Shown: positions 6,977 through 42,312, counted from the first letter of the stretch. The stretch is 64,000 bases of DNA from an uncultured Poribacteria bacterium (GCA_951828385.1 OX639973.1:4331200-4395199); one strand, 5' to 3'. The notes: generated by a model from the sequence alone, not told the origin. A program made the numbers and translations.

Positions 6977-8227
6977 TTACTTGGCTTTTAAGCTGCCCCA
7001 AGTTGTCAGCAGTTTACCAGCAGCTTCGACAGCCGTTCCTGCTTCAGCAGGTGCCTTATACATAGCTTCGACAGGGGCGTTAATACCGGCATACATTCCC
7101 CAGCCGCCGCCACGTTCACTGACTTTTATCAGCAGTAGGTTGTCACCTTTTACAAGGTTAACAGCGACCGTATCTTGGAAGGAGTCTGCGCCGCCGCGTC
7201 CACGGTTGACGGGGTTGTTATGAACTTCTTCGCCGTTGAGCCAGACTTTGACGGAGTCATCACTGCTGACACCGAGCATCACGCCTTCCATATCTTCCTC
7301 GGATACGAGTGTGATGAGTGCATAAGAGGTAACGTCGTTGAAATCAGCGTTTTCTGTCACACCGAGTTCGAGGAGCATGGCATTGATGTTCCCGTCGGCG
7401 GGGAGTGCGCCGAGCGTCCATGCGTAATCACCGACCTCGTCGCCTTCTGTTGCGCCTTCAGTTGCGACCATTTCTTCGGTAACATCGTCGTTACTCGCAA
7501 CAGCGAGCGAGTCGATATCGGTAGAATTGGCACCGCCTTCGTTAGCTTCGGTAGGTGCGATCATCCACAGCCATTCGCCTTCAATGTGGACGATAGGCGG
7601 AACCGCATAGATCGCTGAGAGTTCGGCATCAATACCGACGTACTGTCCCCAGCCACCACCGCGTTCACTGACCTTGACCATCAACAGATTAGCACCTGCC
7701 ACCAGATTCACTTCAATCTTATCTTGGTAGCCATCTATATCAGCGGGTGCGCCGCCGCGTCCACGGTTGACGGGGTTGTTATGAACTTCTTCGCCGTTAA
7801 GCCAGACTTTGATAGAATCATCGCTGCTGACGCCGAGCGTTACGCCGGACTGTGCTGTAGCGGATTCAAGTGTGATAACGGAATAAGAGCTCACGTCGTT
7901 GAAATCGGCAACTTCTGTCATGCCTATCTCAACGAGCATAGTGTTAGTGTTACCGTCATCAGGAAGCGTGCCGAGCGTCCATGCGTAGTCACCGACTTGG
8001 TCACCCTCAGTTGCACCGTTTGTTGCGATCATATCTTCGGTGACATCACCACCGCTGGCGACTGAGAGAGAATCGATATCGGTAGAATCGGCACCACCTA
8101 GGTTGGCTTCGGTGGGTGCTATCATCCACAGCCATGGACCTTTAATGGGTTCTTGTGCATCAGCAATGTGCGTCATGAGGAAAATCGCCACGAGGCACGT
8201 TAAACCTACAAAGAGTTTCTTGTACAT
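6977..8227 (-). CDS. Secreted protein with two copies of a beta-sandwich-like domain
   Basis: About 416 residues. A signal peptide (KLFVGLTCLVAIFLMTHIADA) is followed by two tandem domains of about 185 residues. Each begins GPWLWMIAPTEAN or GEWLWMIAPTEAN, passes a DFNDV(S/T)SY segment and ends SSDDSIKVWLNGEEVHN, NRGRGG and VKVSERGGGWG. The DD-x-KVWLNG pattern is typical of small ligand-binding beta-sandwich domains on secreted proteins, but no catalytic residues are visible. ATG at 8227 is chosen because GGAGG lies 6 bp upstream; a second ATG at 8239 lacks this. The C-terminus reads GKLLTTWGSLKAK, shared with three other secreted proteins here. Function unknown. Confidence 0.85.
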   Translation of the reverse strand: MYKKLFVGLTCLVAIFLMTHIADAQEPIKGPWLWMIAPTEANLGGADSTDIDSLSVASGGDVTEDMIATNGATEGDQVGDYAWTLGTLPDDGNTNTMLVEIGMTEVADFNDVSSYSVITLESATAQSGVTLGVSSDDSIKVWLNGEEVHNNPVNRGRGGAPADIDGYQDKIEVNLVAGANLLMVKVSERGGGWGQYVGIDAELSAIYAVPPIVHIEGEWLWMIAPTEANEGGANSTDIDSLAVASNDDVTEEMVATEGATEGDEVGDYAWTLGALPADGNINAMLLELGVTENADFNDVTSYALITLVSEEDMEGVMLGVSSDDSVKVWLNGEEVHNNPVNRGRGGADSFQDTVAVNLVKGDNLLLIKVSERGGGWGMYAGINAPVEAMYKAPAEAGTAVEAAGKLLTTWGSLKAK

Positions 8228-32277: not shown

Positions 32278-35200
32278 ATGCAGCACAAACTCTGCGCAAA
32301 TTGTGGGTTTCTGAACCCGTCCTTTAAATTTTGCGGTGAATGCGGTACGCCGCTTGATGGCACCTCGCGTTCCCCTGAACTTCCAGCAGCAGATACGGTT
32401 TCTATTGAACAGGCTTTGCCACACGGGGCGGAACGCCGCCAGCTAACCGTCCTTTTTTGTGATATTGTTGACTCCACCGCATTCACCGAAAAACTGGACC
32501 CTGAAGAACTCCGAAATCTCTTAGAAGTATACCGGACATGTATCATGGAGGTGGTTTTAGCACAGAACGGGCACATCGCGCGCTACTTCGGGGACGGTAT
32601 CCTCGTTTATTTCGGCTATCCGATCGCACACGAAGACACAGCACACCGCGCCGTGAGAGCCGCGTTAGGGATCGTCGCCGCTATAGAAACGCTGAATCCG
32701 TATCTCCATAAAACCTTCGGCATAGAGATTAACGTTCGGATTAGCATCGATACAGGACGTGTTGTCGTTTGGCACATCTCAGCACAAGAATCTCCCGAAG
32801 CGATTGATATTGTCGGTAAGACACCGAATCTCGCCGCGAGAATGCAAAAACTGGCAGCCCCCAACAACATTGTGATTGGCGATACAACCCATCAATTGGT
32901 TGAAGGCTTTTTTAAGTGCGACGCACTCGGTGCCTCTGCGCTCCGTGGTATTTCACAGCCTGTGAACATCTACCAAGTGTCAGGTGAAATCCCAGCGCAA
33001 AGCCGACTGGATATCGCCAGTGAGAGCGGATTGACACCCCTTATCGGACGGGAGCGAGAGGTTGAACTTCTCAAACAAGGGTGGGCAGAAGCCCTCGCGG
33101 CCAACGGACAAGCACTCCTTATCCAGGGAGAAGCCGGTATCGGAAAATCGAGATGTGTGCAGCTCATTCAGGAGCATGTTGAGAGCCACCCGGATGCAGT
33201 CACCTTAGAAGGTAGATGCTCACCCTATTACCAGAATAGCCCGCTGTACCCTATCCTTTCACTGTTCCAAGAACACGTCGTACAGTTTACAAGCACAGAT
33301 ACGGCACAGAGAAGACTCGAAAAACTTGAAGATTTGCTGCAGGACTATAACGTTTCGACTGTTGGGCAAGAGGCAGAAGCGCAAGCGCATACGCCGGAAA
33401 CGCTGCCACTCCTCGCTGAATTATTGGACATACCTTTTGAAATACAGCGGCGAACGGAAACCGGCACCGGTCCGGGTTTATATGGTAAACCGGTCAAACA
33501 GGATACATATCCATCCGAATGGCGACGCAGACAGCGACGCCAACAGACCTTGGAAGTACTCGTCCAAGTATTGCTGAAGATGTCAGAACTCAAACCGATA
33601 CTCTTTGTCGTCGAGGACCTCCACTGGATTGACCCGTCCAGTATAGAATTTCTTACACTTTTAATCGAAAGGACCGAAAACGCCAGAATTTTCACAATCT
33701 TGTCCTGGCGATCCGACACACACCCCTCAATCGTATACAAAAACCGGCACAACGTACAATCTAATGAAGATGGAAACTCACAGACGGCTCCTGATGCGAA
33801 CTTTACAAATTCTGCCATAGATAGAGAAATTCTGGAGAAACTCCTGCGACCGGCATGGGCGAAAACACTACCGTTGGAGGTGCTCACACCTCCCGAAGTC
33901 GAAACAATGATTCAGCACGTTGCGGGCGACACGCAACTGCCACCAAATCTATTGACCAAGATCGTCGAAATGACTGAAGGGGTACCTCTGTTTGTTGAGG
34001 AACTGACCCAGATGATGCTGTCTGAAGCACCCCATCCCGATGATCGAGATCGGGCGATTTCAGAAGAAGGCGACGCTCTGACACTTTCTTCTGACGCATT
34101 GGATGCAACGAGCTCACGGTTTCCCCAAACAATGCAGGTGCCTGTGACGCTACAAGATTTGTTGACAGCGCGGCTCGACGAACTCGGCACCGCGAAGGAG
34201 ATCATCCAACTCGGCGCAACACTCGGTCGAGAGTGGACAGCAGAGCTGCTTCACAAAATTGCAGCCGGCGTCGATATCGGGAATAATATCTTCACGGATT
34301 TCTCAGCCTTGAAAGATGAATTGGACAAATTAGTAAACGCATTCATCCTCAATCGCAATGAAACGGCTGACAACCAGTTCCGCTATACCTTTAGGCATCC
34401 GCTGCTGCGTGAGACCGCTTATCAATCGCTGCTAAAAAGCAGACGCCAGCAGTATCATCAACAGATTGCAGAGGTCCTGGAAAGCGCGGACGGTTTTCAA
34501 CCGGAACTCGTCGCTTATCACTACACCGAAGCCGGGCTGCCCGAAAAAGCCGTTGACTATTGGCACAGCGCGGCGCACCGTGCCTTAGAACGCTCCGCAA
34601 ACGTGGAGGGTGTTCGCCACATCATGCAAGGCCTCGCGGCACTCGAAACGCTTTCAACAAATATCGACACACCGGAACTGCGGACGGACGCACGCCATCA
34701 CGATGACAGTGATCGCGTGATGTCCGCAGAAGCCGCTGAACGGCGTGAACTGGAGTTGCAAACAACACTCGGTACCGCACTGATTGCGACCAAAGGATAT
34801 GCATCGCCGGAGGTGGAAGTCGCCTATACACGCGCACGCGAATTGCTGGAAACACTTGAAAAAAGGGAGGAGACCTCTTTAGAGGATGAAACCGATGTCC
34901 TGCTGGATCCGATAAAAGATCTCCGCTTCCCAGTGCTATTCGGGCTGTGGCTCTCTCATCTCGTCCGCGGACGACTCCTCTCCGCACGTGAACTCGGCGA
35001 AGCCTGTGTCGCTATTGCCAAGCAAGCCGAGAATCAAGCGTTTGAAGTCGAGGCACATCGCGCCCTCGGCGCGACACTCTACTATTTGAGCGAATTTAAC
35101 AGTTCATTGGCGCACTTGGAGGCAGGCATTGAACGTTATCAACCGCAGCACCATCCGGTACCCGCGTTTCTCCACTATGTGGCTGAACCCGGAATGACGC

Positions 35201-36003
35201 TTCTCGCCTATTCTTCCCCACTCTTGTGGTGCCTCGGCTATCCGAGCCAAGCGGAAGAACGGATTCATCAGGCGGTGAGCATCGGAAAGAACACGAACCA
35301 TCCCTTTAGTGAGGCGGTATCCCTCCACTTCAAAACCGTGCTTTATCAGTACCGAGGTGAAGCGGAGGAAGTCAACATAGCAGCAACGCAGATGCTACAG
35401 ATATGTCAAGAGCACGGGTTTTCCGCATGGGAAGCCGCAGCGACGGTGCTGAAGGGGTGGGCATCCGCAGCGCAGAACTGCCCTGAAGAAGGCATCGCGA
35501 TGATTCGTGAAGGCATCAACGCTTGGAAAGAGACAAGGGGTGAATTACTCATGCCTCTCTTTCTCGCACTTCTTGGACAGGCGCACCAACGCGCAGGGGA
35601 ATATAAGTTAGCCTTGCAGACACTTGATACTGCTTTGCGTGTCATCACACGTACAGGAGAACGCACCTACGCTGCAGAACTCGCGCGACAGAAGGGCGAA
35701 CTCTGTCTTATCCTTGCTGAGGAAACAGTAGGGGTTGGGTTACCCAACCCCTACGATAAAGAGAATACGCAACCAACCGTTGCACAAGCGGAATCCTATT
35801 TTCAGGAAGCGTTAGCGATCGCACGACAACAGAACGCAAAATCGTGGGAACTCCGAGCTGCACTGAGCTTAAGCGAATTATGGCGGACGCAAAATCGTGG
35901 TGAAGACGCATACAATTTACTTCAACCGATATACGCATGGTTCTCAGAAGGGTTGGATACAGACGACCTTGTGCGTGCTAAAAACCTCCTAAAAAGGTTA
36001 TAA
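32278..36003 (+). CDS. Class III adenylate/guanylate cyclase with zinc ribbon, AAA ATPase and TPR regions
   Basis: 1241 residues. A zinc ribbon uses C6, C9, C19 and C22. The cyclase domain spans about residues 54-240, with metal-binding D62 and D65 (FCDIVDST) and D106 (YFGDGILVYFG). The AAA/STAND part starts near residue 265, with Walker A GEAGIGKS (284-291) and Walker B LFVVEDLHWID. Residues about 740-1241 are TPR-like. GGAGG precedes ATG 32278. Three palindromic insertions sit inside it in frame at 34022, 34685 and 35728. The stop codon lies within a heptanucleotide unit. Such proteins are signal-dependent cyclases; neither the ligand nor the product (cAMP or cGMP) can be decided here. Confidence 0.88.
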   Translation: MQHKLCANCGFLNPSFKFCGECGTPLDGTSRSPELPAADTVSIEQALPHGAERRQLTVLFCDIVDSTAFTEKLDPEELRNLLEVYRTCIMEVVLAQNGHIARYFGDGILVYFGYPIAHEDTAHRAVRAALGIVAAIETLNPYLHKTFGIEINVRISIDTGRVVVWHISAQESPEAIDIVGKTPNLAARMQKLAAPNNIVIGDTTHQLVEGFFKCDALGASALRGISQPVNIYQVSGEIPAQSRLDIASESGLTPLIGREREVELLKQGWAEALAANGQALLIQGEAGIGKSRCVQLIQEHVESHPDAVTLEGRCSPYYQNSPLYPILSLFQEHVVQFTSTDTAQRRLEKLEDLLQDYNVSTVGQEAEAQAHTPETLPLLAELLDIPFEIQRRTETGTGPGLYGKPVKQDTYPSEWRRRQRRQQTLEVLVQVLLKMSELKPILFVVEDLHWIDPSSIEFLTLLIERTENARIFTILSWRSDTHPSIVYKNRHNVQSNEDGNSQTAPDANFTNSAIDREILEKLLRPAWAKTLPLEVLTPPEVETMIQHVAGDTQLPPNLLTKIVEMTEGVPLFVEELTQMMLSEAPHPDDRDRAISEEGDALTLSSDALDATSSRFPQTMQVPVTLQDLLTARLDELGTAKEIIQLGATLGREWTAELLHKIAAGVDIGNNIFTDFSALKDELDKLVNAFILNRNETADNQFRYTFRHPLLRETAYQSLLKSRRQQYHQQIAEVLESADGFQPELVAYHYTEAGLPEKAVDYWHSAAHRALERSANVEGVRHIMQGLAALETLSTNIDTPELRTDARHHDDSDRVMSAEAAERRELELQTTLGTALIATKGYASPEVEVAYTRARELLETLEKREETSLEDETDVLLDPIKDLRFPVLFGLWLSHLVRGRLLSARELGEACVAIAKQAENQAFEVEAHRALGATLYYLSEFNSSLAHLEAGIERYQPQHHPVPAFLHYVAEPGMTLLAYSSPLLWCLGYPSQAEERIHQAVSIGKNTNHPFSEAVSLHFKTVLYQYRGEAEEVNIAATQMLQICQEHGFSAWEAAATVLKGWASAAQNCPEEGIAMIREGINAWKETRGELLMPLFLALLGQAHQRAGEYKLALQTLDTALRVITRTGERTYAAELARQKGELCLILAEETVGVGLPNPYDKENTQPTVAQAESYFQEALAIARQQNAKSWELRAALSLSELWRTQNRGEDAYNLLQPIYAWFSEGLDTDDLVRAKNLLKRL
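34022..34063. repeat. 42-bp in-frame palindrome, cyclase copy 1
   Basis: 42 bp, 14 codons, encoding a segment reading APHPDDRDRA. Terminal arms ctgaa and ttcag pair, and cccgat pairs with atcggg inside. Part of a four-copy family. Confidence 0.75.
34685..34726. repeat. 42-bp in-frame palindrome, cyclase copy 2
   Basis: 42 bp encoding ARHHDDSDRV. Arms cggac and gtccg pair, and catcacgat pairs imperfectly with atcgcgtgatg. Confidence 0.75.
35728..35754. repeat. 27-bp in-frame perfect palindrome in the cyclase gene
   Basis: Two 13-bp arms (gtaggggttgggt and its inverse) around one base. It encodes VGVGLPNPY between TPR-like helices. Confidence 0.8.
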
Positions 36004-36065
36004 GTTATAAGTTATAAGTTAAGAGCGAAAACCGTCTTTGCGAAGTTTAACTCTTAACCAACAAC
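35997..36065. repeat. Heptanucleotide element downstream of the cyclase gene
   Basis: Three gttataa units and one gttaaga, then gcgaaaaccgtctttg and an inverted arm. It supplies the cyclase stop codon (36001-36003). Confidence 0.7.
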
Positions 36066-36084
36066 TACTAAAAAGGAAAAGAAA

Positions 36085-36945
36085 ATGAGACTTGGCGTTG
36101 TTGGACTCTGCGGCGACTTCCGCACTCTTACATCAGATGAAATCGCAAACATTAAGGCTTTGGAATTTACGGGATTAAGCTTCCATTTCCGGAGCGCGGA
36201 AATCCCGTCTGTGCCACCAGATGCTTGCACCCGCTGTGTGCAAATGTTAGAAGCAGCGAAACTCGACCTTGTGCAATTCGGCATAACTTATGACGAATGC
36301 CTCTTTCATCCAGATGCCGCTGTCCGAGAAGCCGCTATTGAAAGCGTCCAACGCGGTATGGAAACCGCTGTCTCTCTTGGGGCGCACCACTATCTGTTCC
36401 GTCCGGGCAGTCTCAATCCCGATGGGGCTTGGACTTCTCACCGAGATAACCATCTCCCAAAATCGATGGAACGGTTGATTGAGACCCTGAAACCGATAGC
36501 AGCACATGCTGAACGACATGAACTGACGCTTGTTATGGAGACGCACGCCGTTTCCATTATGGGGTCACCGGAAATCTGCCGCGAAGTTGTAGAACAGGTC
36601 GGTTCCGATCGACTTCGCATCGTCATGGATTTCGTCAACCACTTTCAAACACTCCGACAGGTCTATGACAGCGAAGACCGTCTGAACCACATTTTCGACG
36701 TAATGGGTCCCGTGGCACCGATGGCGCATATTAAAGACATCAGCGTTCAGAACGGTTTGGTACTCCATCTCAATGAGGAGGTCCCCGGCGAGGGTGAATT
36801 GGCACTCGGTGTAGCACTAAAACGTTTCGACGCGCTCTATCCGGACGGCTATGGATTAATAGAACATCTACCCGCGGAGAAAATTCCGCTCGCGAATACG
36901 AACGTCCGGCGAATTGCCGCCGAAAACGGGGTGAATATCTACTAA
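36085..36945 (+). CDS. Sugar phosphate isomerase/epimerase (TIM barrel)
   Basis: 286-residue AP_endonuc_2-type barrel: FTGLSFHFR near the start, LVMETHAVS mid-barrel, IVMDFVNHFQ, MAHIKDIS and a final GLIEHLPAE, the positions used for metal and proton-transfer ligands. It differs clearly from the 6048 protein, so the two are distant paralogues. AAAAGGAAAAG precedes the ATG. Substrate unknown. It lies between the cyclase and the 851-residue unknown on the same strand. Confidence 0.82.
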   Translation: MRLGVVGLCGDFRTLTSDEIANIKALEFTGLSFHFRSAEIPSVPPDACTRCVQMLEAAKLDLVQFGITYDECLFHPDAAVREAAIESVQRGMETAVSLGAHHYLFRPGSLNPDGAWTSHRDNHLPKSMERLIETLKPIAAHAERHELTLVMETHAVSIMGSPEICREVVEQVGSDRLRIVMDFVNHFQTLRQVYDSEDRLNHIFDVMGPVAPMAHIKDISVQNGLVLHLNEEVPGEGELALGVALKRFDALYPDGYGLIEHLPAEKIPLANTNVRRIAAENGVNIY

Positions 36946-36997
36946 TTTCTCTTCGGAATGGTTAACCGACAACCGATAAGAAAAGGAGAGTTGAACC

Positions 36998-39553
36998 ATG
37001 CTTAAAAACATTAGGATAACACAGCTTCTAAGACATCTCTTCCGATCCTATATACCGACTGCTATTTTTCTTTTGCTTACATTTTTGTCCACGGCGTTCG
37101 GACAAGAGGATTCCATCACCGACACACTCAAGGAAGGCACAGATAGCATTTGGGAGAAGGTACAACTTTACGGCGGCGTGACCTTAGTCATCTTTCTTTT
37201 TACTGCTTTTTTTTATCTCCTCAGACTCTTTCAGAAAGATAAACTCCTGAAGACACTCCTTAACAAATATGTCGTCTTTCAGATGAAGGAGGGGAACAGA
37301 CGCTACCGAGGCGCAATGCGGCTTGAAATCTCAGGCATGGAAATCATCTCCGAGGAATCCCGACAGCGCGGGCATGCCCCGAGTTATATCTTTAAGACCG
37401 AAGAACGTGAAGAACAAATTGTCGCATACATCCGCTACCACGATACGATGAACGAGCGTGAACTACGGGAGCGCACATGGGAACTGGAGCGGGTCTACCA
37501 CCCGCCATTTATCTACAAAATGAGGCGGAAAATTCGGAATATGTTCGTCGCCCTCAGAGAAGCCTCAGCAAATGCTCTCCGTATGGTGCTGCAAAGTGTC
37601 AAGGGTAACGTCGGTGAACGATTTGAAGACTATAATAGAGCATACCAACAAGCGATCGACGGGAAAAAAGGCGAGGCAGATATAACAGGCATCGATAGGT
37701 TAGACGATACCACCGAGCACTTGCAGGAACAGGAGACCTATGAGCGTCTAATCGAACGTCTGGTCGGCACCCGGATCAAAGTCCGCACGCAGACTGGAGA
37801 ATACACCGCTATCCTCAAAGACTATAATAACAAGCATATCGCGTTAATGGATGTCAAAGATGGAGACAACAATGGTTACAAAGATAATTGGGACTATGAA
37901 CACGAATATAAGGGCGATATTAATGCACTGAACCGCCGCGACGACCGCGGCTTACGGGTTCGTGCGGAGGGGGATGACGAAAACGGATATTTTCTCGTCT
38001 TTGAAAACAATACGCCTTACCAAATTCAGCTCGGGCATGTCGTGCTGCACGACGGCCCCCCCCAATGGGCAAGGAACTTTGAATTCAAATACCACATTCA
38101 AGCCTTCAGTGTTCAAAAACTTAAAATTGAACCGATGGCGCAACACAACGTAGGCCCGTTTCAACGGATTAGAGCGCGTGAGCGACTGACGATCAGAAAT
38201 TATAAAAAGATTAAAATCGATTTCCGCTCTTTCAGGGATGCTGATATCATTTTCCCGAAAAAATATTGCACTATTGTCGAAAGCGCAGAGAAATATCAAC
38301 CCGAACTCTTCAGTCTAAGCGGCTTGACCGACACAATTCTGGACATGAGCGATACCGAGGACATCGCCATCGCAGACAAAGAGGGGAAGCCCATCCACGG
38401 CATCAATGTCGTCCACGGATACGTGACAAACGTCAACGAAGAACGCATTGATTTGAAGACAATCGATACCAGCTACAGCCGACGCTGGGATGTTGAAAAC
38501 GCCTTCCGCCGTTTTGATAATAAATTCCGTCACGGATTTCCTATTCACAAAAGGCTCCTACCCATAAATCGCGCCAAGATTACAGCGCACGCCTCTATCG
38601 TTGAGCAGATACACAGTAACGCCGTTCGGCACGAAGCGTTAGCACCGGTCGTTTATCCGGCACGCAGCTTAGATACCGCAGAACAGCGCGCACGCCGCCG
38701 AAAGTTGATACGGAACCGCATCGTCGGCGGCATCAATGCTACCTTTAACACCAAGTTTTGGAAACCGAATGCTGGGGTTCCCAAGACACCCGGTGTCACG
38801 CGCGCAGAAGTCCAGATGGCAATGCCTATCAAACTTATGGCTTTTACGGGTAATACCTCTACAGTCGAATTTCCGGTCCTACAACGTTTTGAATATATTC
38901 AGGAACATCACATGATTTATAGGGAGGTACCGGATCTACGCACCGATCGACTCCCGAAAACCGATATTTTGTGGATCGGCAACGGTGAAATTTACAAAGC
39001 CGGCTATCGACTGAACATTGATGCTGAACACCGGATCAAAAATTTCGTCAGCCAAGGCGGCATCGCCATCGTCTCTGGACAAGACATCAAAACCAGCACC
39101 AAACAGCGCCGTGGAACTGGATGGATACCGGAACCGCTCACCGGCATTGAATGTGACGAAACCTATGAGTTATTTCCCACATCCCGCGGGAAACGTTCAC
39201 GTATCTTCCAATACCCGAATCCACTGAATGGAAACCACCATACCGATCCGGAGGCAATGGAACAACCCCTGATTCGACTCGATGATATGTGGCTCGATCC
39301 ACTTGGGAAATGGACATCTCTCGCTAAAAGCAATACCGCTGCAGCCGGCCTGTCAAGTGACGGGTTTGAAAACGCATCCGCGCTCCTCCTCCTCCCTTTC
39401 CAAAAGGGTTTATATATTGTTACCAGTTTGAAGAATGAGACAGAAGAGGATGTACGCATCAACGACAAAATCATGGAAAACCTGCTCCATTTTTCTGTCA
39501 AATGGCTGGATAAGCAACGTTCCCCGCGCAAGTTGGGAATAGTTAATAGTTAA
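36998..39553 (+). CDS. Large membrane protein of unknown function
   Basis: 851 residues. A signal peptide or anchor (about 17-34) and a second transmembrane helix (about 58-76) are followed by a large soluble part. Around residues 250-275 (LVGTRIKVRTQTGEYTAIL) there is an Sm-like beta pattern, and similar phrases recur later. The last third, near DILWIGNGEIYKAGY and VSQGGIAIVSGQD, resembles the Rossmann-like part of DUF4159 or glutamine amidotransferase-like domains. AAGGAG precedes the ATG. The final codons (GIVNS stop) are read from a heptanucleotide array, so the C-terminus was rewritten by repeat growth. No function can be assigned. Confidence 0.7.
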   Translation: MLKNIRITQLLRHLFRSYIPTAIFLLLTFLSTAFGQEDSITDTLKEGTDSIWEKVQLYGGVTLVIFLFTAFFYLLRLFQKDKLLKTLLNKYVVFQMKEGNRRYRGAMRLEISGMEIISEESRQRGHAPSYIFKTEEREEQIVAYIRYHDTMNERELRERTWELERVYHPPFIYKMRRKIRNMFVALREASANALRMVLQSVKGNVGERFEDYNRAYQQAIDGKKGEADITGIDRLDDTTEHLQEQETYERLIERLVGTRIKVRTQTGEYTAILKDYNNKHIALMDVKDGDNNGYKDNWDYEHEYKGDINALNRRDDRGLRVRAEGDDENGYFLVFENNTPYQIQLGHVVLHDGPPQWARNFEFKYHIQAFSVQKLKIEPMAQHNVGPFQRIRARERLTIRNYKKIKIDFRSFRDADIIFPKKYCTIVESAEKYQPELFSLSGLTDTILDMSDTEDIAIADKEGKPIHGINVVHGYVTNVNEERIDLKTIDTSYSRRWDVENAFRRFDNKFRHGFPIHKRLLPINRAKITAHASIVEQIHSNAVRHEALAPVVYPARSLDTAEQRARRRKLIRNRIVGGINATFNTKFWKPNAGVPKTPGVTRAEVQMAMPIKLMAFTGNTSTVEFPVLQRFEYIQEHHMIYREVPDLRTDRLPKTDILWIGNGEIYKAGYRLNIDAEHRIKNFVSQGGIAIVSGQDIKTSTKQRRGTGWIPEPLTGIECDETYELFPTSRGKRSRIFQYPNPLNGNHHTDPEAMEQPLIRLDDMWLDPLGKWTSLAKSNTAAAGLSSDGFENASALLLLPFQKGLYIVTSLKNETEEDVRINDKIMENLLHFSVKWLDKQRSPRKLGIVNS

Positions 39554-39737
39554 TGGTTAATAGTTAATGGTTTAGGACTTACGCAATTCCCTGGTAGGTG
39601 CGGTTTCCTAACCGCACCTACCACGTCATAACAGATGTAATTCTCCAATTTTGCGTAAGTCCTGGTTAATAGTTAATAGTGCTACTGTCAAGTGGAGAGC
39701 CACTCTTAACTAATAACCAACAACTAACAACCTATAA
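39542..39737. repeat. Heptanucleotide arrays split by a 90-bp element
   Basis: Units gttaata and gttaatg (four, 39542-39569), then an inserted inverted-repeat element, then two more gttaata units (39665-39678), and an inverted arm of AAC-ending heptamers from 39703. It lies between convergent genes and could also act as a hairpin terminator. Confidence 0.6.
39574..39663. mobile_element. 90-bp inverted-repeat element inserted in the array
   Basis: Perfect 13-bp ends aggacttacgcaa and ttgcgtaagtcct. The interior is a 30-bp hairpin (39593-39622) with 13-bp arms beginning ggtaggtgcggtt. No coding capacity. Confidence 0.7.
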
Positions 39738-41048
39738 CTATAAATCCAACAACTCTAAAAGTTTCTCAACGCCTTCGGTAATAACCAACGCGACCTCAAG
39801 CACAAATATCGGCGGAAGCACGCCATCACGATGATCGGGATCGCGTGGCTTCCGAGGAAGGTTCCGGTTTCCTACAAACGCTCCCAATTTTTGCTCATCT
39901 TTTTGCGTTGTGACAATCAGATCCGCCTGCGCAGCTTGAAATACAGTGTCAATCCGCACGAAGTCCGCCTCGGTATAGACGTGATGATCAGGAAATGCCA
40001 ATAACTCTACACTTTCTGCGGAACACTGCATGAGCGTCGTGGCAAACGCGTCTGGATTTCCGATCCCACAAACTGCGAGAAGCCGTTTTCCTTTAACCGC
40101 TTCCGAAGCAGGGTGGAAATCTCTTTCTTCCGCGTTTGGGGGGGATGCTACCGGAAGCGTGCCATCAGGATCGCTTACTGGAGTCGTCCGATCGTGATCA
40201 TCGCGATGGGACGCTCCAGCAGACTTCCGCAAAGGATAGAAATGGACCGGTTGGTGGACACTCTCCAGAATCAGCGCATTCGGTGCCGATTGCCGCAATG
40301 CCGCTTTAGCGTCTCGCAACATGTCAACTGTCCCTGTATGTGTTAATAGGATAACGTCCGCGCGTCGGAGCGCAGTAGACGGTTCGCGCAAGGTCCCTGC
40401 GGGTAGCAATCTCTCTCTGTTTTTAAAAGACACCCGCGGTCGGTGCGGTTTCAAACCGCCCCTACCAGCGAAGGGATATTCTGGTGCCGCTTGTAAGCCA
40501 ACGACTGAGTGCACAGGAACGGTGAGAATATCAACATCACGTGCAAGCTGCCGGTGTTGGAACCCGTCATCCAGAAGTAGGACATCTACACCAAAACGTT
40601 CAAGCGCGACCTGTCCTGCCTGATAGCGTTGACGGCTTACAATAATCGGAATACCGCTGAGATGTTTCGCCATCATGTATGCTTCATCGCCGCTCTCTTT
40701 TAAGGAAGCGCACACCCTTTCACCGTCCGAAACGATTGTTACCTTTTCACGCGATTGACGTTTATAACCGCGCAGCAGGATAGCGACGCGTACCTTCTCT
40801 GTTTGAAGGTGTTTCGCAAGCGCAATCACAGCAGGTGTTTTTCCCGTTCCACCCACAACGATATTACCGACACTGATGACGCGACACGGCAGCGTGAGCA
40901 CTTTAAACAGCCCAAGTGCATAAAGTCGATTCCGTAGCCATACACTCGCACCGTATAGCCAACTCAGTGGGATTAATAAGAAACGTAGGGGGCTGGCAAG
41001 AAGCCTTTTCTGGAACGAGGCAAGATCGAAAGAGTGCGTGAGTTTCAT
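39738..41048 (-). CDS. lpxK: Tetraacyldisaccharide 4'-kinase
   Basis: Inner-membrane kinase that phosphorylates the 4' position of the lipid A precursor. Start at MKLTHSF (41048). A membrane-associated N-terminus is followed by Walker A VVGGTGKTP at about residues 65-72, RGYKRQ, DEAYMMAK, LLDDGFQHR and the late GIGNPDAF and AFPDHHVYTEAD motifs. It has 436 residues, against about 330-380 normally. The excess lies in three repeat-derived insertions: a PHRPRV segment after AGRGG, a SHRDDHDR segment before GKRLLAVCGIGNP, and a RDPDHRDGV segment near the C-terminus. All catalytic motifs are intact, so the protein may still work. Confidence 0.92.
   Translation of the reverse strand: MKLTHSFDLASFQKRLLASPLRFLLIPLSWLYGASVWLRNRLYALGLFKVLTLPCRVISVGNIVVGGTGKTPAVIALAKHLQTEKVRVAILLRGYKRQSREKVTIVSDGERVCASLKESGDEAYMMAKHLSGIPIIVSRQRYQAGQVALERFGVDVLLLDDGFQHRQLARDVDILTVPVHSVVGLQAAPEYPFAGRGGLKPHRPRVSFKNRERLLPAGTLREPSTALRRADVILLTHTGTVDMLRDAKAALRQSAPNALILESVHQPVHFYPLRKSAGASHRDDHDRTTPVSDPDGTLPVASPPNAEERDFHPASEAVKGKRLLAVCGIGNPDAFATTLMQCSAESVELLAFPDHHVYTEADFVRIDTVFQAAQADLIVTTQKDEQKLGAFVGNRNLPRKPRDPDHRDGVLPPIFVLEVALVITEGVEKLLELLDL
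39813..39854. repeat. 42-bp in-frame palindrome, lpxK copy 1
   Basis: 42 bp, arms cggaag and cttccg, encoding PRDPDHRDGV in lpxK, so it is read in the opposite orientation to the cyclase copies. Confidence 0.8.
40152..40229. repeat. Nested 42-bp palindromes in lpxK
   Basis: The inner element, 40178-40219, is 42 bp (arms ctggag and ctccag, encoding ASHRDDHDR). It sits inside an outer element (arms cggaag at 40152 and cttccg at 40224) that is interrupted by it. Confidence 0.65.
40438..40466. repeat. In-frame palindrome of the ggtaggggc type in lpxK
   Basis: Arms of 14 bp (12 matching) around one base, read on the minus strand as ggtaggggcggtttg and beyond. It encodes the GLKPHR region absent from usual LpxK. 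Confidence 0.7.
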
Positions 41049-41127
41049 AGCGTATAAAGTTTGCGAGTGTACTAAAGTCGCGAAGTCTGTAAAGTTGAAA
41101 GAAGGTTTCTTAACAACTTTAGGCACT

Positions 41128-42312
41128 TTAGAGCACTTTACAGACTTTCTGCAGTGCAGCATCTAACACCAATTCAGCAGTACGTTCAGCGGCACCGGCT
41201 GTGCCAAGCTGCGCATAAACTGCTTGAAGTGCCTCTCGTTGTGTTTCCCGTTTTTGTGGATGCTTCAGGAAATCAAGTGCCAACGCCGTCAAGGCAGTCG
41301 GTGTCAATTCCGTCTGTAGCAGCTCGGGGACAATATCGCGTCCAGCAATGAGATTCGGCAGTCCGCTCCGGTTTAAAGGGGTCAACGCCTTGATGATATG
41401 CCAGTTGAGTGCTGCCGTGCGAAAGAGTATAATCATCGGTGCACCGATACAGGTCGCCTCAAGCGTCGCTGTGCCGGAAGTAACCAGCAGCAGGGTTGAT
41501 GCCCGCATTGCCTGATAGGTCTGATTTTCCACAATCTTAATAGACGGAATTTGTAGGGGCGAGGTCACCTCGCCCCTACAGTGTTTTGCAATGAGGTTGC
41601 GTGAAATTCCGGGGGCTAACGGGAGAATCCACTGTGCATTCGGATAGACCTGAGCGATGTTCGCAGCGGCTTTTAGCATGACCGGCAAAATGTGGTGGAT
41701 CTCGGAACGGCGACTCCCCGGCATCAACCCGATAACAGGTGCCTCCGGATCGTCTTCCGTTTCAGATATGTTAAGGCGTTCGCGTGCCGCTTGTGTGCTG
41801 AGCGGTGTCTGTGCGAAATCGACGAGCGGATGTCCTACGAATTCCGCGTTCGCACCTGAGTTTCGGTAAAATTCCGCTTCAAACGGGAAGATCGCCGCGA
41901 CGACGTTTGCCCACTTTGCGAGTTTCCGAGCACGGTTCGCACGCCACGCCCACGCCTTTGGTGGAATGTAATAGACAACGGAGACACCCTGCCGCTGCGC
42001 AAATTTCGCTAACGGCATATTAAACTCAGCAAAATCCACAAGAAGGAGCACATCAGGGCGGTCCTCACGGATACGCCGTTTCAGATACGCCTGTTTCCGT
42101 AGGAACATCGGTAGGACAGTAATGACATCGGCAAAACCCATGACAGCGGAATCTCGGATGTGAAGGTCAAGCTTCACTGATACCGCTTCCATCTGGTCGC
42201 CGCCCATGCCGAAAAGTGTTATATCCGGACACAGTGCCTTGAGTTGCCGAGCAACATGAGAAGCGTGCAAGTCACCAGAAGGTTCCCCAGCAACAATCAT
42301 AACCTTTGGCAC
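41128..42312 (-). CDS. lpxB: Lipid-A-disaccharide synthase
   Basis: GT19 glycosyltransferase that joins UDP-2,3-diacylglucosamine and lipid X. Motifs: VAGEPSGDLHASH at the start, VLLLVDFAEFNMPLAKF, YYIPPKAWAWR, GHPLVD, GLMPGSRRSEI, and SGTATLEATCIGAPM. GTG at 42312 is the likely start, because GGAG lies 8 bp upstream and it puts the protein at 394 residues. The frame is open further upstream through a repeated tract. A perfect palindrome at 41552 adds about 10 residues (HCRGEVTSPLQ). lpxK follows 80 bp downstream on the same strand. Confidence 0.92.
   Translation of the reverse strand: MPKVMIVAGEPSGDLHASHVARQLKALCPDITLFGMGGDQMEAVSVKLDLHIRDSAVMGFADVITVLPMFLRKQAYLKRRIREDRPDVLLLVDFAEFNMPLAKFAQRQGVSVVYYIPPKAWAWRANRARKLAKWANVVAAIFPFEAEFYRNSGANAEFVGHPLVDFAQTPLSTQAARERLNISETEDDPEAPVIGLMPGSRRSEIHHILPVMLKAAANIAQVYPNAQWILPLAPGISRNLIAKHCRGEVTSPLQIPSIKIVENQTYQAMRASTLLLVTSGTATLEATCIGAPMIILFRTAALNWHIIKALTPLNRSGLPNLIAGRDIVPELLQTELTPTALTALALDFLKHPQKRETQREALQAVYAQLGTAGAAERTAELVLDAALQKVCKVL
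41552..41580. repeat. 29-bp in-frame perfect palindrome in lpxB
   Basis: Two 14-bp arms (tgtaggggcgaggt and its inverse) around one base. In frame, encoding CRGEVTSPL. Confidence 0.8.

Follow-up and report, generated by a model that had tools for sequence, protein, structure and literature searches.

The best-known palindromic elements inserted in frame within protein genes are those of Rickettsia and Wolbachia. The insertion of IS605 is another process of relevance here, and it takes place without duplication of the target. The Rickettsia palindromic elements (RPEs) are 105–146 bp in length and are found in frame within genes (PMC2229807, PMC3767692); they have been described as losing their repeat identity with time (PMC6649704). 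REP sequences comprise two described superfamilies, the GTAG and the CGTC repeats, and the latter includes some RPEs, with RPE-6 and RPE-4 classed as CGTC repeats (PMC3733652). CGTC repeats display a CGTC/TGTC/CCTC tag, stems of 8–9 bp, loops of 4–5 nt and a CCA-like tail (PMC3733652, Di Nocera et al. 2013). In E. coli, TnpA_REP requires an unpaired bulge in the hairpin and cleaves at a CT dinucleotide (PMC8266576). Palindromes are also present in coding sequences of Nematomorpha mitochondria, where they are perfect and seemingly actively maintained (PMC6649704).

The locus described here is part of a genome of the sponge-dwelling Poribacteria. The window analysed is a 64-kb stretch at positions 4,331,200–4,395,199 of a single contig of 6,656,312 bases. 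It carries copies of a short hairpin that, like the RPEs and the Wolbachia palindromic elements, is palindromic, dispersed, and in frame in unrelated and often conserved genes; as with those elements, no transposase is known to move it. A sequence-only reading of the window had proposed a mobile in-frame palindrome that behaves like the RPEs but appears to differ from them in length and sequence. The proposed behaviour is supported, as orthologues, some of them >90% identical, are without the inserted residues, and the length does differ, the unit being 45 bp as opposed to 105–146 bp. The phylum is also a different one, and the Poribacteria element is without the CGTC tag, unlike RPE-6 and RPE-4, which belong to the CGTC class. 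In its behaviour it resembles the RPEs and the REPs, but the definitions of the GTAG and CGTC families applied here do not fit it, and its size is not that of the RPEs. No Rfam family matches the region, and the titles and abstracts of the open-access papers searched on Poribacteria palindromes describe no such element. Among in-frame palindromic mobile elements, the 45-bp hairpin is filed here as a new family.

Copies in the window and the size of the unit

The four 42-nt copies first noticed from the sequence alone are borne out by a direct check of the window (Table 1). They match the consensus at 28–42 of 42 positions, and the best other place in the 64 kb, with the copies on either strand set aside, has 25/42 matches.

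Table 1. Copies of the hairpin and their host genes, in window coordinates
Feature	Position	Strand	Description
Copy 1	34022–34063	+	42-nt hairpin, arms CTGAAG/TTTCAG, peptide (S)EAPHPDDRDRAISE in adenylate-cyclase/AAA ATPase gene
Copy 2	34684–34728	+	unit A-42-CA, hairpin 34685–34726, peptide TDARHHDDSDRVMSA, same ATPase gene as copy 1
Copy 3	39811–39855	+	unit GG-42-A, hairpin 39813–39854, antisense to lpxK, peptide RKPRDPDHRDGVLP
Copy 4	40177–40221	-	unit TG-42-T, hairpin 40178–40219, variable region of lpxK, peptide GASHRDDHDRTTPV
Decayed fifth copy, larger piece	40152–40176	+	9 nt lost at apex; split by copy 4
Decayed fifth copy, smaller piece	40222–40229	+	GACTTCCG; adjoins TC (opposite strand) targeted by copy 4
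Gene carrying copies 1 and 2	32278–36003	+	Guanylate_cyc + AAA_16 + TPR protein, 1241 aa
Gene carrying copies 3 and 4	39738–41162	-	lpxK (tetraacyldisaccharide 4'-kinase)

Comparison of filled and empty orthologous sites shows that the unit inserted is exactly 45 bp, i.e. the 42-nt hairpin plus 3 nt, or 15 codons. Its layout is TG or a similar dinucleotide, the 42-nt imperfect hairpin, and 1 nt. The original description of a 42-bp, 14-codon insert was thus right as to insertion in frame and wrong as to size. Every full-length filled/empty case adds exactly 45 bp.

The 45-bp unit of copy 1 takes in 3 flanking nt (net +45), and its site is filled also in two relatives (L104 and L105) and empty in about 20 other Poribacteria. 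The copy 2 site is private to the source genome, with all aligned relatives empty, L104 and L105 included (net +45), and its boundaries are unambiguous. A third site in the ATPase gene is filled in L104/L105 and empty in the source genome. The site of copy 3 is empty in 15 relatives, with a net gain of 45 bp relative to L105 and a boundary uncertain by 1–2 nt. The lpxK orthologues in named genomes are all from Candidatus Poribacteria.

Copy 4 is nested within an older, decayed fifth copy, after the TC of the latter. The fifth copy has 33 of its 42 nt left, and its two pieces joined read CGGAAGCGTGCCATCAGGATCGCTTGACTTCCG. Because the site lies in a hypervariable stretch of lpxK, it is the nesting, rather than an empty orthologue, that defines the boundaries of copy 4. 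The AlphaFold2 model of LpxK places both inserts in low-confidence coil flanked by confident elements, and copy 4 is in or beside a segment with pLDDT below 50. The true start of lpxK is probably the Met at 41048.

Palindromes of other kinds are also found in the window. A second kind (GTAGGGGTTGGGTTACCCAACCCCTAC, positions 35728–35754) is in frame in the ATPase gene of copies 1 and 2 (ETVGVGLPNPYD); nearly all of the relatives aligned are without it, and in one of the loci (L138) a longer GTAG insert occupies roughly this position. A GTAG palindrome at 41553–41579 is in frame in an lpxB-like gene, around HCRGEVTSPL, and this stretch in L104 and L105 displays related but different GTAG palindromes. 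Two further GTAG-type palindromes are at 40437–40468, seemingly in frame in lpxK (GGLKPHRPRVSF), and at 39594–39621, between genes.

Distribution, junctions and target

A search of the 6.66-Mb genome with the core pattern (up to 3 mismatches) yields 21 matches, and the reversed-pattern control yields 0. With a covariance model, 23 full-length copies are recovered from the same genome at scores of 53–73 bits, together with four weaker or shortened ones; two of these four are only 27 nt long, having lost 15 nt internally. Variant copies (CGAAAG...CTTTCG) are present downstream of two paralogous secreted-protein genes (L056 and L057, genome positions 3791845 and 3895278), whose surroundings are 83% identical over 1.5 kb.

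Copies were detected in 21 of 60 genomes in a first survey, every one of the same genus. A survey of the phylum (85 genomes, E-value up to 1e-4) shows copies in 20 of the 38 genomes of the genus and in 0 of the 47 Poribacteria genomes of other genera. All genomes compared are metagenome assemblies. The number of matches per species of the genus varies widely, from 0 to 58; copies are fewer than matches, since many copies match on both strands. This high variability in presence and copy number inside one genus is counted as a sign of mobility, as is a copy carried by a phage contig.

Among virus contigs, one carries a copy (L353, positions 7624–7665; IMGVR_UViG_2744054414_000001, 45.8 kb). The copy is intergenic and has different arms, GGGTG/CACCC. 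A terminase-like gene is also found on the contig, as is a TnpB of the IS605 type that closely resembles the one of the Poribacteria genome; because this TnpB is shared, the phage presumably infects Poribacteria. Records of known phages gave no match to the element, and plasmid records gave only weak partial matches that look fortuitous.

The host genes include rpoC (named from sequence), priA, pdxA, lpxK, an inositol-phosphatase-family gene and a transglutaminase-like gene. The copies had been portrayed as residents of protein genes, which is correct for the majority, but about a third of the examined copies lie between genes. That the residues are ordinary protein sequence, for which nothing speaks beyond the open reading frames themselves, is already refuted: the same DNA is present in many unrelated genes, in both orientations and intergenically, further copies are numerous in the genome, and orthologues are without the residues.

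Several examples show the nature of the junctions. In priA the site is filled in three genomes (G000, G029 and G010) and empty in the other aligned relatives (net +45). The rpoC insertion is private to the source genome, with 29 relatives empty (net +45). In a gene of 700 aa the site is filled in four genomes and empty in 25 (net +45), and the junction TTC/TG-42-A/GA (slashes mark the ends of the unit) is unambiguous. Several junctions are ambiguous by 1–2 nt. A target-site duplication is not found at any resolved junction (priA, lpxK, ATPase gene, 700-aa gene, rpoC). A MITE moved by a DDE transposase, with terminal inverted repeats and a target duplication, would also be short, palindromic, multicopy and itself non-coding; the gain of exactly 45 bp without duplicated target bases at all resolved junctions, including the unambiguous one in the 700-aa gene, makes this origin highly improbable.

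Insertions occur in either orientation. Over 90 independent sites the conserved flanking positions are T at -4, C at -3, G or T at -1 and A at +1. TC is at -4/-3 in 36 of 82 sites, as compared with a background of 6.6%. The remaining eight sites fit TC/TG when reversed, and have T in 6/8 and C in 6/8 at -4/-3; it should be noted that their -2/-1 bases follow from the selection procedure, while T and C at -4/-3 do not. At most empty sites the TC is already in place, and it is therefore the target and not part of the element. TC is found at only 44% of sites, which counts against the process proposed below; the target may be a loose one, or the TC may have decayed at the other sites. With IS200/IS605-type elements the hairpin shares its insertion, free of duplication, on the 3' side of a short preferred target.

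In pdxA there is a copy within a copy (42 + 45 = 87 nt), and one relative (G029, locus L214) has an un-nested orthologous copy at this place. At three loci (L047, L051 and L063, at genome positions 1795185, 2983807 and 6619891) one copy is nested in another, and in all three the inner copy interrupts the outer one at an identical point. The explanation is either spread of the composite as a unit or a preference for the TC at that point.

Fold, reading frames and covariation

The fold was derived from a first alignment of 21 sequences of the genome. Going from the outer end to the apex, a helix of 6 bp is followed by an A bulged out of the 3' strand, a second helix of 5 bp, a C.C mismatch, a third helix of 6 bp and a loop of 5 nt. 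Complementary, covarying arms had been proposed from the window copies, and the alignment confirms them: 93.2% of stem cells are standard pairs, two-sided changes are found at 8 of 17 pairs, and 0 of 500 shuffles attain the pairing fraction or the two-sided count. The C12.C30 mismatch and the bulged A36 are each retained at 83 of the 90 independent sites, and the element tail at these sites is A(A/G). The loop, ATGAT, is conserved among the spreading lineages together with the mismatch and the bulge.

The length of the unit is a multiple of three, and four of the six frames of the hairpin contain no stop codon, which allows it to land in genes without breaking them. Copies are within long open reading frames in 73 of 114 cases (64%; 82% for random places in the same loci), and two frames account for 69 of the 73. 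Open reading frames were recognised heuristically, by length, and of the four copies in other frames three are in short, doubtful ones. The + strand has a single stop-free frame, hence the preference there is forced. The - strand has three open frames, and one is used by 32 of 36 copies (p ~7e-12 if equally likely). The two favoured frames yield hydrophilic coil peptides, AEARHHDDRDRVTSE or LRKSRDHDHRDGVLP, and the two little-used frames of the - strand encode a basic or a hydrophobic peptide. The - strand bias is read as a filter on tolerated peptides.

Between independent sites there are 7058 two-sided pair changes against 2129 expected; this is a contrast and not a statistical test, because the pairs of copies are not mutually independent. 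A different result is given by 17 sites shared between species (L104 and L223, which are the same, are counted once, as are L105 and L217). Changes after insertion are pair-breaking in 55 cases and pair-keeping in 16, and two-sided changes number 5, with 3.7 expected by chance. Compensatory maintenance of the hairpin after insertion is thus not seen at the 17 shared sites. In this the hairpins differ from the Nematomorpha mitochondrial palindromes, which they resemble in being located within coding sequence: the Poribacteria hairpins decay after insertion.

Since the arms covary across insertions and decay uncompensated at shared sites, the hairpin appears to be needed for spreading and not at the place where it has landed. 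That the hairpin is selected in the spreading copies and not in the recipient gene is the main inference of the analysis. Selection of this type counts against a function in the host gene, whether as an mRNA structure or as a selected peptide. The stability of the hairpin and the nearly constant use of the same two frames inside genes would agree with such a function; the excess of pair-breaking changes in shared copies, the unrelated host genes, the presence of both orientations, the close orthologues that have no copy and the lack of an Rfam match leave it with very little probability.

A proposed mode of mobilisation

The following process is proposed. As the filled and empty sites show, a fixed 45-bp unit is inserted preferentially 3' of a pre-existing TC, in either orientation and with no target bases duplicated. 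An enzyme acting in trans would recognise the folded, single-stranded hairpin and join it beside the TC, in a manner modelled on the HUH (Y1) enzymes that act on IS200/IS605 and REP elements. The survivors in genes are mostly those that are read in two frames giving hydrophilic coil peptides. The fixed length, the TC target, the lack of duplication and the conserved unpaired bases resemble HUH single-strand transposition, for which the bulge requirement and CT cleavage of E. coli TnpA_REP serve as an analogy. The element is likely to be a non-autonomous, mobile, single hairpin of 45 bp that spreads in one Poribacteria genus with the aid of such an enzyme.

A RAYT-like or other transposase of matching specificity had been suggested as something to look for, and the search found no matching RAYT-like transposase. 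Among the genomes of the genus, no Y1/HUH transposase is co-distributed with the element. The relative with the most matches (G030) has one Y1 gene, of 143 aa and IS200/IS605 type, and in another genome (G012, 89% complete) no Y1 gene was detected. Since no Y1 gene fits, the enzyme has to be postulated. Many insertions are shared between species and hence old, which weakens a test based on present-day correlation. The mobilising enzyme may have been lost from many genomes, or may be carried intermittently, e.g. by phages. Among the neighbours of copies no transposase-like gene family recurs; a hitch-hiking gene was rejected, as nothing is found repeatedly beside copies apart from an ABC protein family and two shared loci.

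Mobilisation as a REP element by a resident RAYT (TnpA_REP) has to be considered at this point. The source genome does have RAYT-like genes, and the mismatch and bulge in the hairpin, the insertion adjacent to a dinucleotide and the lack of target duplication are as this origin would have them. The hairpin foot, however, is without GTAG, and the presence of the RAYT does not follow that of the element. The RAYT at 476481–477080 is flanked by its own GTAG repeat arrays and by no copy of the element; it is present in two element-free genomes (G011 and G031) and has no match in the copy-rich G030. The Y1 gene at 3790471 was also rejected: one copy of the element is about 1 kb away, but the gene is set in other palindromes (CACCCCTACGGGGTG), and element-free genomes have Y1 genes that are comparable in score and length. 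A resident RAYT is accordingly an improbable mobiliser. The GTAG arrays around the RAYT (gene and arrays at L103, 1035–2375, near 476 kb of the genome) display a spacing of 86–87 nt and both orientations, and are REPIN-like.

The element can also be compared with the repeats themselves. With the GTAG REP/RAYT system it shares a small hairpin, unpaired bases (conserved in some groups of those repeats), cleavage or insertion adjacent to a dinucleotide, and an occasional intragenic location. It differs in its flanks, whose consensus over the 90 independent sites is T C N G and not a GTAG foot, in having no Y1 gene of fitting distribution, and in that separate GTAG repeats surround the RAYT of the same genome. 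Like the CGTC REPs, it has no dedicated transposase and can sit in genes. Unlike them, it has no fixed tetranucleotide at -6 to -3 (the TC belongs to the target), its stem consists of 6+5+6 bp interrupted by a bulge and a mismatch, and its tail is A(A/G). The IS200/IS605 elements of the same genomes similarly have hairpin ends and insert beside a fixed short target, but their end hairpins are around GCTTTAGC and they are preceded at the left end by sequences such as TTAAC. These end hairpins were rejected as a source of the element, as both sequence and target differ.

Spread in the absence of a dedicated enzyme, e.g. by template switching or hairpin-primed repair in replication, would explain why no transposase is co-distributed, and CGTC REPs, RPEs among them, are also without a dedicated transposase (PMC3733652). 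The fixed length of 45 bp, the preference for TC and the conserved mismatch and bulge suggest instead an enzyme that recognises the hairpin, and spread without a dedicated one is considered unlikely. A broader form of the enzyme proposal, which is tentative and may well prove wrong, is that the element represents a new class of single-hairpin mobile DNA of fixed, codon-multiple length, inserted after TC by an enzyme that recognises the mismatch and bulge or by a phage-borne function, and routinely adding 15 residues to proteins, essential ones included.

The movement of the in-frame palindromes of Rickettsia and Wolbachia has long been an open question. The Poribacteria element belongs to a separate family from another phylum and is much smaller; its empty sites are clean, its boundaries are defined, it favours a particular target, and its hairpin appears to matter for spread rather than for the host gene. 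Judged from sequence, it enters even essential genes, e.g. that of RNA polymerase, and each in-frame copy would add 15 amino acids; peptides of the EARHHDDRDRVTS type are those expected in RpoC, PriA or LpxK if the inserts are translated. Dozens of related genomes can be compared, some carrying copies and some not, and this makes both the search for the enzyme and the entry of these peptides into essential proteins such as RNA polymerase beta' directly testable.
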